Shown: piece by piece, positions 26,071 to 30,109 of the stretch
Layout of the letters: every line of letters starts with the position of its first letter
How positions within the stretch are numbered: position 1 is the stretch's first letter
Origin: Gammaproteobacteria bacterium Gsub
Lineage (GTDB): Bacteria > Pseudomonadota > Gammaproteobacteria > PS1 > Pseudothioglobaceae
NCBI GenBank assembly: GCA_002007405.1
Contig: JYIN01000008.1
Coordinates: 1-64,000, forward strand
Direction: 5' to 3'
DNA length: 64,000 bases
Notes under the pieces: model-generated
Told to the model about the DNA's origin: nothing
The model's input: the letters and a program-made list of their open reading frames with translations, nothing else
The model's database searches: none
Made by a program: the position numbers and the translations under genes

Positions 26071-27828
26071 TTAATTAAGTTGGATGCGCGACCCCCATGG
26101 CACTTGCTGTTTGCCTTTTACCAGCCATAATACCGGGTAGTTTGGCTCAGATTTTGGAAATCTGCCCTTGGCATCGGTGAAATAGATTAACACATCATTT
26201 GGTGTGTTTTTGGTTTTGATGTAATCAAATACGGGGTTAAAATCAGTGCCACCGCCACCGCCAAATGAATCAGGAAATTGGATTTTTTCCCAAGCCTCAA
26301 AATGCCAAGGTGAATCCTGTGCCAATTTGTCGTCGCAGGCAATTAAAGTAATGCTGGCACGAATATTGGCTTTAATGGCATTAATTTCTGAGGTAAATTT
26401 ATCAATCTCGTCTTGAGAAATTGAGCCTGAGATGTCAATAGCTACGGTGATACTCATTTGTCTTGATTTAAGAGATGGAAAAATAGCATCTCCCATACGC
26501 CGCGAGGGGCGGGAATAAGTAAAATCATCATACGCAAAAGCCGACATATACTGGGCTAAGAGCGATTGCCATGGAACCTGGGGTTGCAGGAAAAAACCAA
26601 TCAACTTAGCAAATTCTGCACTAAGTCTGCCCGCTTGTTGTGCCAATTGTGCGCTTGAGGCTAAGTTTTTTTGCCACTGGCTTGCTAGTTTATCTATTTC
26701 ATCGGGTTGTAGAGGCTTTGGCTGCTGCGCAAATTGTGCACTATATTGGCTTTGGCTTTTCTTAGATTTATCTTTTTGTTTTGGGGATGAGTTTTGTAAT
26801 TGATCTTCGCTGATTTTATTGCTAGATTGCAAAAGGTTGTCATTATTAAAGTCGTCATATAAATGTTGATCCATTGGCTGTTGATTAAGATTATCAGCAA
26901 TCATGGGGTAAATTTCCTCGGCAATCATGCCCTCATACTGTTGATAGATTGGCACCTCAATAGGCGGACGAAAACCCTCTTTAATTAACAATGGATTGAT
27001 AGCAAAATCACAAGCCAGATCCCATTTATGTTTGCTACGCATGCCTCGACGAGCAAAATGCGTGAGCGCACAATGCAGTGCTTCGTGAATCAGCACAAAT
27101 TTAATCTGCGAATTATCTAGTGCATCAATAAACGCAGGGTTATAATAAAAATTTTTAGCATCAGTGGCACTGGTTTTGCACCAATCATCTGCAACAACAA
27201 GTGGCAAACGCAGCACCAAATTACCCAAAAAAGGCTTATCTAACATTAACTGGGTGCGAGCCTTAGTGAGTTTTGCCATAATTTTATCTAAATCTAGTGC
27301 TTTTTTATCTGTATCAATTACAAGATCCTCAGCAACCACTTTAACCCCTATCTTAGTTTGCAACTCCTCACCCTGCCCTATTTTCTTAACTTTATTTATT
27401 TTGGGGTGTTTTGCACTTAACTGTTTGATGTTTTTTCGTTGCCCGTTCGTGAGTAATGCTATATTGGGGAATAATTCTCTATCCTCTGCCCTAGTATGGG
27501 TTTTTAATAAAGTGCCAAATTCAGCCAATAGATCAGGTTTTTCCACCAATGCTTGTGCTAATTGATAGAGTTTTTGGTGTTCATTAATAAGCCGGGTGCA
27601 TAAGGCATCTAACTCAGCTGATTTGCCTTTAAGTGGAGTGAAAATTGCCTTTTCTTCGGTCTCAAAATGGGTTTGAAAACTAGCCCTAAAAGTTGTTGAA
27701 ATTTGCAAACAAAGAGCGTCAATCTCAGTCAAACTCCCAGATTTTGCAACATTCACTGCCTTATTGCCAAGCGCTAGAGAAATATGGTGTTCCTTAGCTA
27801 AAACCAATAATTCATCGGCTACTTTCAT
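26071..27828 (-). CDS. Hemerythrin-like / DUF2201 metallopeptidase-like / VWA fusion protein
   Basis: 585 residues from the ATG at 27828. Residues 1-125 look like a hemerythrin HHE domain with ligand pattern His15, His54-x3-Glu58, His84, His111-x4-Asp116. Residues 185-320 match the DUF2201 putative metallopeptidase with HEALH at 248-252. A low-complexity Gln/Ser/Lys linker follows (about 315-375). The C-terminal VWA-like domain (about 455-585) has the MIDAS motif DISGS at 465-469 and TDF near 528. The last two parts are the usual partner of MoxR ATPases. The hemerythrin fusion is unusual. The start overlaps the nnrS stop as TGATG. Confidence 0.85.
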   Translation of the reverse strand: MKVADELLVLAKEHHISLALGNKAVNVAKSGSLTEIDALCLQISTTFRASFQTHFETEEKAIFTPLKGKSAELDALCTRLINEHQKLYQLAQALVEKPDLLAEFGTLLKTHTRAEDRELFPNIALLTNGQRKNIKQLSAKHPKINKVKKIGQGEELQTKIGVKVVAEDLVIDTDKKALDLDKIMAKLTKARTQLMLDKPFLGNLVLRLPLVVADDWCKTSATDAKNFYYNPAFIDALDNSQIKFVLIHEALHCALTHFARRGMRSKHKWDLACDFAINPLLIKEGFRPPIEVPIYQQYEGMIAEEIYPMIADNLNQQPMDQHLYDDFNNDNLLQSSNKISEDQLQNSSPKQKDKSKKSQSQYSAQFAQQPKPLQPDEIDKLASQWQKNLASSAQLAQQAGRLSAEFAKLIGFFLQPQVPWQSLLAQYMSAFAYDDFTYSRPSRRMGDAIFPSLKSRQMSITVAIDISGSISQDEIDKFTSEINAIKANIRASITLIACDDKLAQDSPWHFEAWEKIQFPDSFGGGGGTDFNPVFDYIKTKNTPNDVLIYFTDAKGRFPKSEPNYPVLWLVKGKQQVPWGSRIQLN

Positions 27829-29006
27829 CACCCAAACTGCCCATCAATCCTAACTTTAAAAAATAGTGGCGTGTAAATTAGCAAAAACATTACAAACGAT
27901 ACAATCCACAAAACCTGTGAGCTAAATATCCAATAAATATAATACTCAGGGCTTATAATAGGGGCTATCACCCTAAAAACAAAAGATAGACTCAATATTA
28001 TAAAAAGCCTATTTAATAGTCTGGGCGGCGCAAACACATTACGCCCAGTATGCCCCAGGGACACCCTACTCATCATACTAAGGGTCATCAGTGCAATACC
28101 AAAGGCAAAACTATGTAGTGCTATATTAGGCATAAATATCACAAAATAAGACAAAGCATTAAGCCCAAAACCCAAAATAATAAACCCATAAGCACAATAA
28201 ATACTCCACAGTAGCGGCTTTTTCCAAATACCTGGGTGATGCCAATTAAACAATCTAAGACTGTGAATGACAAACAAAATACCCGCCAAAATAGCGGATA
28301 AAACACCTTGTGAAAAAACCTCAATCGGAATAAATAATAAAACCAAAAATAGTGAAGATAAATCTAACCATTTAGAATTTTTTAATCCACTATCTAAATG
28401 CAAACCACGCTCAATAAAAAACGGAATCAATCGCCGTGCCATCATTAAAATTAGACTGATGATTAAATAAAAACCCAAATACAGCCCCCAAACTTCACCA
28501 TGCTCAACAATGCCGAGCAAACCCAAATAAAATAAGCCATGTGCCACTGTTATTAACAATAATTTACCAATAATGCCAATCTGTTGTTTTTGCTTGGTTT
28601 TAATAATTGGATAGGCAATTGCAACAATCGCAAAACCCAAAAAACCCACATCAATTAACGCCTGAAACGCAAGATATTGCAAAGGTATAAAAGGTAAGAA
28701 ACGCCCCGCTATCCACAGCACAAAAAGTGCTAATAGTGGCTTGCCATTTAGGGTTTGTAAGTTTGTCCAGTTCTTAACTGCACTCAGCAAAAAACCAACA
28801 ATGACTGCCACTGCATAAGCAAAAACCATCTCATGTCCATGCCAAAGGTTAACGCTTATATTAAGATTTAATATGTGGGTATGAAAAAACACCAGCCAAA
28901 GTGCCATAAAAATAACCCCAACCAAACCAGCAGCAAAGAAAAACGGTCTAAACCCTAAGCGTAAAAAAGGTACTATTTTGTGTTTGTGTTGTTCAAGACT
29001 TACCAT
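27828..29006 (-). CDS. NnrS family membrane protein
   Basis: 392 residues with about 12 transmembrane helices. NnrS is a heme- and copper-containing inner-membrane protein tied to nitric-oxide resistance and denitrification regulons. Family features visible: LRLGFRPFFFAAGLVGVIF at the start, LWHGHEMVFAYAVAVIVGFL in helix 2-3 with conserved His residues, the ARRLIPFFIERGL loop and SRVSLGHTGR near the C-terminus. It sits between the MoxR gene and the hemerythrin fusion gene, with TGATG stop/start overlaps on both sides. This indicates one translationally coupled operon. Confidence 0.92.
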   Translation of the reverse strand: MVSLEQHKHKIVPFLRLGFRPFFFAAGLVGVIFMALWLVFFHTHILNLNISVNLWHGHEMVFAYAVAVIVGFLLSAVKNWTNLQTLNGKPLLALFVLWIAGRFLPFIPLQYLAFQALIDVGFLGFAIVAIAYPIIKTKQKQQIGIIGKLLLITVAHGLFYLGLLGIVEHGEVWGLYLGFYLIISLILMMARRLIPFFIERGLHLDSGLKNSKWLDLSSLFLVLLFIPIEVFSQGVLSAILAGILFVIHSLRLFNWHHPGIWKKPLLWSIYCAYGFIILGFGLNALSYFVIFMPNIALHSFAFGIALMTLSMMSRVSLGHTGRNVFAPPRLLNRLFIILSLSFVFRVIAPIISPEYYIYWIFSSQVLWIVSFVMFLLIYTPLFFKVRIDGQFG

Positions 29007-30046
29007 CAATCAAATATAACATCGGCAACTTTCCCTGCCCAGTCACTAAATTCGGCAATGGAAAAAATATCTTCACCGATGGCACGCTGCATATCTGATA
29101 CTAACATCACGCCAAGTTCTTTTTGTGGAAAATCACGCGCAAAATTAAGAATATTACCCCAAATTTTATTAGCGTTGGCATGGTTTTTAACACTAATCGC
29201 TCTACCGACTAAAGCACAACAGATGGCGTATTGCAAATCAATTGACTCTGGGATTGGAGTAACCTCACCAGCAACAATCAAATCAAGATCTGGCAAATCT
29301 TTAAGGTGTTCAATAAAAGTTGTTACTTCAAGACCTGCTGCCTCGCCGACACAAGCACTGGCAGCTTGACTAAATAAATCTAGATTATGGTCAAATTTTT
29401 GCAAAGCACGATGGGTAAACTCCCAAGTCCTAGGTGAGGGAAAGGCGTTAGGATTGTGCGCAAAATCAAATTCAAATAAACGCTCTGGACGATAACGCAA
29501 AAAACTAATAATACGCTCATCAATCTTATTTTTATACGCCCAAGCCACCCAATCGTCTAAATTAACATCTAGTTCATAATGAGAAAAACGATTCGCCAAT
29601 GGTGCAGGCATAGAATAAGTAACACCGCGGTCGCCCTGACGATTACCAGCAGCAAAAATTACCCAGCCATCAGGCATTTGGTAATCCCCCAAACGGCGAT
29701 CTAAAATTAACTGATATGCGGCGGCAGATACGGTGGGTGGCGCTGAAGTAATCTCATCCAAAAATAAAATCCCACGCTTACCATGACGCACCACATCGGG
29801 CAATAAAGACGGAATAGACCAATCCACCAATGCCCCATTTTTAAATGGAATACCGCGCAGGTCACTCGGCTCCATTTGCGACAGGCGAATATCAATCATT
29901 GCCACCTTATGCTGAGTTGCCACCTGCGCAATAATTTGTGATTTACCAATCCCCGGCGCCCCCCACAACATCACTGGCGTGTGATGCCCAAGGGTAACCG
30001 ATTTAAACTCTTGATTAAGAATTGCACTAACTTGCTGTGGACGCAT
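29006..30046 (-). CDS. MoxR family AAA+ ATPase
   Basis: 346 residues. Walker A GAPGIGKSQIIAQ near residues 30-42, a PSDLRGIPF loop, Walker B GILFLDEITSAPP, sensor 1 FAAGNRQGDRG and the arginine segment LANRFSHYEL. MoxR ATPases work with VWA proteins as chaperones that insert cofactors or remodel metalloenzymes. The VWA partner here is encoded two genes downstream. It is first in the operon; upstream lies the divergent ybeD with a 63-bp gap. Confidence 0.92.
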   Translation of the reverse strand: MRPQQVSAILNQEFKSVTLGHHTPVMLWGAPGIGKSQIIAQVATQHKVAMIDIRLSQMEPSDLRGIPFKNGALVDWSIPSLLPDVVRHGKRGILFLDEITSAPPTVSAAAYQLILDRRLGDYQMPDGWVIFAAGNRQGDRGVTYSMPAPLANRFSHYELDVNLDDWVAWAYKNKIDERIISFLRYRPERLFEFDFAHNPNAFPSPRTWEFTHRALQKFDHNLDLFSQAASACVGEAAGLEVTTFIEHLKDLPDLDLIVAGEVTPIPESIDLQYAICCALVGRAISVKNHANANKIWGNILNFARDFPQKELGVMLVSDMQRAIGEDIFSIAEFSDWAGKVADVIFD

Positions 30047-30109
30047 AAAAACTTGATAAAGATAAAAAGCGCTTATTCTACCGTAATAAAAAGTTAAAAT
30101 CTCTAAAGT

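Follow-up and report, generated by a model that had tools for sequence, protein, structure and literature searches.

The stretch analysed here, called the window, comprises 64,000 nucleotides of contig JYIN01000008.1 (C1 in our numbering) from Gammaproteobacteria bacterium Gsub, which has a genome of 1.37 Mb and belongs, as does the marine sulfur bacterium Thioglobus, to the Thioglobus/SUP05 family. Beside lipB/lipA, its minus strand carries a three-gene operon. It consists of a gene for a MoxR-family AAA+ ATPase (29006..30046, 346 aa, Walker A GAPGIGKS, Walker B ILFLDE), nnrS, whose product belongs to a membrane haem-copper protein family of nitric oxide (NO) tolerance (27828..29006, 392 aa from the ATG), and a gene of 585 aa from the ATG (26071..27828) that fuses a hemerythrin-type HHE domain, a DUF2201 metallopeptidase-like domain and a von Willebrand factor A (VWA) domain. 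Two exact TGATG stop/start overlaps link moxR to nnrS (29004..29008) and nnrS to the fusion gene (27826..27830); because both junctions read TGATG, one base is common to each stop codon and the next ATG. The overlaps had been noticed in a first-pass annotation of this DNA, and we verified both in the minus-strand sequence. On the other side, a 63-bp intergenic region (30047..30109) without an exact DNR/FNR-type palindrome leads to divergent DUF493-like, lipB and lipA genes.

NnrS is a response gene to NO of long standing, the mechanism of which is unclear. The window protein, the single NnrS that a profile search found in its genome, matches Pfam PF05940 over the full model (positions 1-371 of 371, E 1.5e-93, 314 bits against a cut-off of 28). 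Its gene differs from other nnrS genes in its coupling to HHE and its place between moxR and duf2201. The window MoxR exceeds the cut-off for AAA_5 (E 6e-6), with a weak AAA_3 match under the cut-off; its full-length orthologues in the family are 78-86% identical, and the closest solved structures by sequence are the AAA modules of Midasin. It is not of the CbbQ_C type, for which the sole PF08406 match in the genome is CbbQ on contig C6, and a third MoxR, of the common AAA_3 type, is encoded on contig C12.

The composition of the last gene, as read in the first-pass annotation, was borne out by significant Pfam matches for hemerythrin (PF01814, E 6.1e-11), DUF2201_N (PF13203, E 1.9e-40) and the DUF2201 VWA-like domain (PF09967, E 8e-23). 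The putative metallopeptidase domain spans residues 186-448 (26485..27273) and contains the HEALH motif at 248-252 (H248-E249-A-L-H252). The VWA domain (residues 462-585, 26074..26445) has an intact metal ion-dependent adhesion site (MIDAS) made of D465, S467, S469, T528 and D552. Both motifs, which had been pointed out before at 248-252 and 465-469, are kept in at least 19 of 20 DUF2201 homologues. An HExxH-type zinc motif is thus present in the DUF2201 domain by its sequence, and the peptidase role is putative. Every ligand and functional motif of both halves of the fusion is intact. An anti-phage role was considered for the three window proteins, for which PADLOC gave no convincing match.

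The N-terminal domain (residues 1-139, 27412..27828) deserves a closer description. AlphaFold2, supplied with 20 family sequences, predicted a four-helix bundle for residues 1-144 (predicted local distance difference test score, pLDDT, 95), with helices at 5-30, 33-66, 71-93 and 98-125 and a short fifth one. The candidate ligands are spread over all four helices, with H14/H15 on helix 1, H54/E58 on helix 2, H84 on helix 3 and H111/E115 on helix 4, so that the bundle which the first-pass annotation had expected for residues 1-125 is indeed predicted. In the model of the whole fusion the bundle is followed by a disordered linker (residues 141-170, 27319..27408, pLDDT about 32) at the spot where HHE stop and DUF2201 start overlap in relatives, then by the metallopeptidase-like domain, a disordered segment (327-362), a helical region and the VWA domain. 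Sequence searches of the PDB with the HHE domain gave no significant match. By Foldseek the domain matched PF0695 of an archaeon (3cax) and NMB1532 of Neisseria (2p0n); their probability was high, although E exceeded 0.01. A Foldseek search with the full fusion model matched the FBXL5 hemerythrin.

Conservation revises the ligand list proposed earlier. E13, H14, H15, C40, E58, E59, C77, E83, H111, R113 and E115 are invariant in 20 of 20 HHE sequences, and H54 and H84 are found in 19, which leaves H15, H54, E58, H84 and H111 of that list in place. Its last member, D116, is D in 16 and N in 4 of the 20 sequences, and the neighbouring E115 is therefore the last ligand. Judged by sequence and helix position, the site appears to be a set of four His and two Glu that ends in HxxxE and resembles YtfE instead of a hemerythrin. 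In O2-binding hemerythrin the final ligand motif is HxxxxD, whereas the window domain has an invariant H111-x3-E115 and D or N at position 116. YtfE uses H84, H129/E133, H160 and H204/E208, with two bridging Glu and four His (PMC9052748). The window domain shares with YtfE/RIC/DnrN the HHE four-helix bundle, the identical order of ligands (H, HxxxE, H, HxxxE) and an NO-linked neighbourhood. It differs in lacking the ScdA_N (DUF542) domain with its Cys pair (there is no Pfam match and the protein starts at the bundle), in scoring 16.3 bits against a cut-off of 204.7 for the YtfE/RIC model TIGR03652, and in its coupling to NnrS and fusion to DUF2201-VWA. Every intact HHE protein of the family has two cysteines, C40 on helix 2 (27709-27711) and C77 on helix 3 (27598-27600), which by their residue numbers are widely separated along the bundle.

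We compared the locus across 83 genomes of the Thioglobus/SUP05 family, in which DUF2201 is present in 48, HHE in 34 (remnants counted) and NnrS in 28 (pseudogenes counted). In relatives, HHE is a separate gene of ~147 aa that overlaps duf2201 by ATGA or a similar junction. The full order there, moxR-nnrS-hhe-duf2201, in most cases ends with a 104-aa rhodanese gene that the window operon lacks, and it lies beside divergent DUF493-lipB-lipA. An intact NnrS-HHE pair occupies the moxR site in 12 family genomes, which keep NnrS between MoxR and HHE/DUF2201 as had been anticipated; six genera retain this order, with junctions that are mostly overlaps of the ATGA/TGATG type. Many relatives carry moxR-duf2201 alone, and in genus g5 NnrS is on its way out as a pseudogene.

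The fusion itself is a local event of two genes that are separate in relatives. We searched the family, a class sample of 370 Gammaproteobacteria genomes, plasmids and genome contigs, and the intact fusion was present only in the window; the general HHE-DUF2201-VWA architecture that the first-pass annotation had suggested looking for elsewhere did not recur. A long match at locus L165, taken up as a possible second fusion, overlaps moxR and carries no HHE. In the draft of G002, a genome of the same genus as the window's, the region is missing. In the decaying g5 locus of genome G035 (L177:4926-5729), fragments of HHE and DUF2201 are read in a single frame. This is an independent and probably non-functional fusion, and such fusions can therefore arise by small indels. 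The earlier statement that no system of this composition has been described agrees with our literature search, which found nothing on DUF2201 with hemerythrin, on MoxR with NnrS and hemerythrin, or on Thioglobus with NnrS.

Gene positions in the family divide the operon into two modules, NnrS-HHE and MoxR-DUF2201. HHE lies directly downstream of NnrS in 20 of the 22 family genomes with a canonical NnrS, the exceptions being G053, which has an HHE remnant, and G056. In eight genomes the pair lies away from MoxR-DUF2201: it was relocated to a thiF/AhpC locus in G052, G054, G057, G058 and G059, and in G055 with a broken NnrS, and to a dihaem cytochrome locus in G076 and G077. A tree of NnrS and HHE, with weak support at some deep forks and a long window branch, gives the moxR site as the most frequent and probably ancestral location, and explains each other site by one move. 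Six changes in whether NnrS-HHE occupies the moxR site are needed on the tree of MoxR-DUF2201. In G065 and G067, where NnrS is gone from the site, HHE has lost ligands.

The NnrS-HHE pair is linked to NO. NorB is encoded in 8 of the 83 family genomes, all of which have an intact NnrS-HHE (Fisher 8e-6; 3e-4 without genus g4), and about 5.5 of 7 independent phylogenetic pairs are concordant and none opposite (median p 0.03). The window's genome encodes nirK, norC, norB and a Crp/Fnr regulator together on contig C7, and its NorB matches the cytochrome c-dependent NO reductase (cNOR) 3o0r with E 7e-96. An exact DNR/FNR-type palindrome, TTGAYNNNNRTCAA, lies upstream of nirK in the window's genome and in G056, upstream of norCB in four genomes (G045, G061, G062 and G076) and, in G076 and G077, upstream of the cytochrome-nnrS-hhe operon; it is rare in general, with 9 occurrences in 366 kb of background and none in the window. 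The instance TTGACTTAAGTCAA is identical before the two cytochrome-nnrS-hhe operons (L145:3178-3191, L146:3846-3859), and TTGACTTATGTCAA precedes nirK of the window's genome (L174:6366-6379). A scan of the sequence upstream of the window operon gave no convincing NsrR box. Published work places nnrS and ytfE/dnrN in common NO regulons (PMC1274295). According to a review (PMC5710167), NnrS is reported to guard against the formation of iron-NO complexes, and signalling to Fe-S repair proteins is a further role proposed for it. Apart from the pair, a truncated HHE stands directly beside nirK in G046 and in G014, apparently on the same contig; upstream of it in G046 (L170:3858-5174) are two tandem glycine-rich, secreted-looking repeat proteins with NNxGPFSGG repeats.

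Beyond the family, the second module stands on its own. DUF2201 occurs in 121 of the 370 class genomes (about a third) and NnrS in 185, and among the NnrS matches listed from outside the family none is near DUF2201. Neither NnrS nor HHE was seen at any of 39 class DUF2201 loci inspected. Both proteins of the window, MoxR and DUF2201, are adjacent in many sampled genomes as uncharacterised pairs that differ in lacking NnrS/HHE. Since MoxR-DUF2201 is widespread without NnrS/HHE, its primary task has nothing to do with NnrS, and the coupling is peculiar to the family. The first-pass annotation had proposed an NO- or O2-responsive module with NnrS as client or sensor; the link to NO is upheld by the NorB association and the palindrome, and NnrS may act as a client or sensor, but an obligate client is ruled out by the separability of the modules in relatives and across the class.

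Several neighbours of these loci were recorded in passing. In about half of the 39 class loci, among them L103, L105, L107, L110, L112, L113, L128, L130, L134 and L135, duf2201 is directly followed by a gene for a conserved protein of ~375 aa (370-390 aa) with no Pfam or NCBIfam match, and at several loci a sirohaem-synthase-like gene comes next. The protein is possibly linked to sulfur metabolism and may resemble DsrS. In the g8 genomes G049, G052, G056 and G057, the PADLOC candidate defence pair PDC-M12A/B (AbiLi-like ATPase and RloB-like protein; L071:3123-4942, also L043, L038 and L057) lies immediately upstream of DUF2201; as moxR is found ~6 kb further upstream in G052 and G057, the operon was split there by the insertion. 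Within the window, downstream of lipA, the minus strand between 31963 and 37179 holds two long genes for a secreted-looking protein of 655 aa and a lipoprotein-like protein of 1066 aa with repeats.

The nearest characterised machines are NorQ-NorD and CbbQ-CbbO, which likewise combine a MoxR AAA+ ATPase with a partner that has a C-terminal VWA domain, an intact MIDAS and a variable N-terminal part. NorQD inserts iron (PMC9976466); there the ATPase ring is plugged by the VWA domain, and the target has been suggested to depend on the partner's variable N-terminal domain (PMC9976466, PMC13036017). The window system differs in its partner, a DUF2201 metallopeptidase-like protein carrying a di-iron-type HHE domain, in having nnrS between the genes of ATPase and partner, and in lying outside the nor operon (C1, with norCB on C7). 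By analogy with NorQ-NorD and CbbQ-CbbO, the VWA domain would plug a MoxR hexamer, and target choice would fall to the N-terminal part of the VWA protein. The cNOR operon of the window's genome consists of a 104-aa gene together with norC and norB, and both norQ and norD are absent from it, an arrangement that we call type A (a 104-111-aa gene, norC and norB only; L174 on C7 of the window's genome G000, L187 on G076 C69, L188 on G045 C65, and L194-L211), while the other type in the family comes with NorQD.

Our preferred reading, to which we give a probability of roughly one half, is that an NO-tolerance or iron-repair di-iron domain has been tethered to a MoxR-VWA machine. One module, NnrS with a small YtfE-like HHE protein, would form an NO-tolerance pair that accompanies NO-generating and NO-reducing respiration; the other would be the MoxR ATPase with its DUF2201 metallopeptidase-like/VWA co-chaperone. 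In its N-terminal position and on a flexible tether of ~30 residues, HHE may serve as the target-facing or cargo domain and be brought to an iron enzyme opened by the machine, where it would supply or exchange iron or clear NO, with NnrS limiting NO damage to iron at the membrane. The fusion suggests, short of proof, a machine that cares for NO-exposed iron proteins. Several points weigh against it: the intact fusion is known from one genome, MoxR-DUF2201 is widespread without NnrS or HHE so that its main client is something else, NnrS occurs without NorB in 14 genomes, nirK, a candidate driver of the association, does not track NnrS in the independent-pair test, and no DNR/FNR-type box was found in the upstream sequence scanned before the window operon. 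The data establish the architecture, its conservation, the ligand pattern, the pairing of NnrS and HHE and their association with NO reductase; iron occupancy, NO chemistry, docking to MoxR and joint action of the modules are steps that we infer. The strongest version, a dedicated chaperone that supplies iron to NO-exposed respiratory enzymes or restores it there, the NorQD-less cNOR among them, while NnrS guards the same iron at the membrane, is improbable on present evidence.

The most serious competitor, though clearly less probable than the tethered repair domain, holds that the genes are neighbours without a joint function: NnrS-HHE was inserted between moxR and duf2201 early in the family and only shares their transcription, and the fusion arose by a nearly neutral accident where two genes overlapped. 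Loss, decay or relocation of NnrS-HHE while MoxR-DUF2201 stays, the shared frame in the decaying G035 locus and the many MoxR-DUF2201 pairs elsewhere without these neighbours fit this view. It is at odds with a gene order kept in six genera, mostly with overlaps, with the moxR site being the commonest and probable ancestral location of NnrS-HHE, and with the preservation of every ligand and motif in both halves of the fusion. It is rather unlikely that MoxR/HHE-DUF2201-VWA stands in for NorQ-NorD by inserting or restoring the iron of the cNOR in the window's genome, even though the sole NorQ/CbbQ-type ATPase and NorD-like protein found there are CbbQ and CbbO beside RuBisCO, and NorQ/NorD was seen within ~1.5 kb of a type-A cNOR in none of 18 class genomes inspected. 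Class genomes with cNOR carry DUF2201 more often than the rest (45/80 vs 64/290, kinship ignored), but the enrichment is about equal for the type usually accompanied by NorQD (35/63) and the NorQD-less type (11/18), so the class-wide counts show no specificity for type A and do not support the substitution. MoxR-DUF2201 is also present in ~40 family genomes without NorB, and type-A cNOR may need no NorQD or may use CbbQO. We are similarly doubtful that HHE senses O2 or redox/iron state and so switches the MoxR machine, instead of acting in NO defence or repair. The resemblance of the bundle to FBXL5 and other hemerythrin-like folds and the invariant C40 and C77 would suit such a sensor, but NO is indicated by the NnrS neighbourhood, the norB association and the relocated copies with a DNR/FNR-type box, and the carboxylate pattern is YtfE-like, unlike that of O2-binding hemerythrin.

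The tight partnership with HHE gives a direct handle on the mechanism of NnrS, and the pairing fits the published proposal that NnrS communicates with iron-sulfur repair proteins. The di-iron-type domain on a MoxR co-chaperone is a clue to the task of the widespread and unstudied MoxR-DUF2201 pair, and the cNOR without NorQD makes the source of its FeB a testable question.

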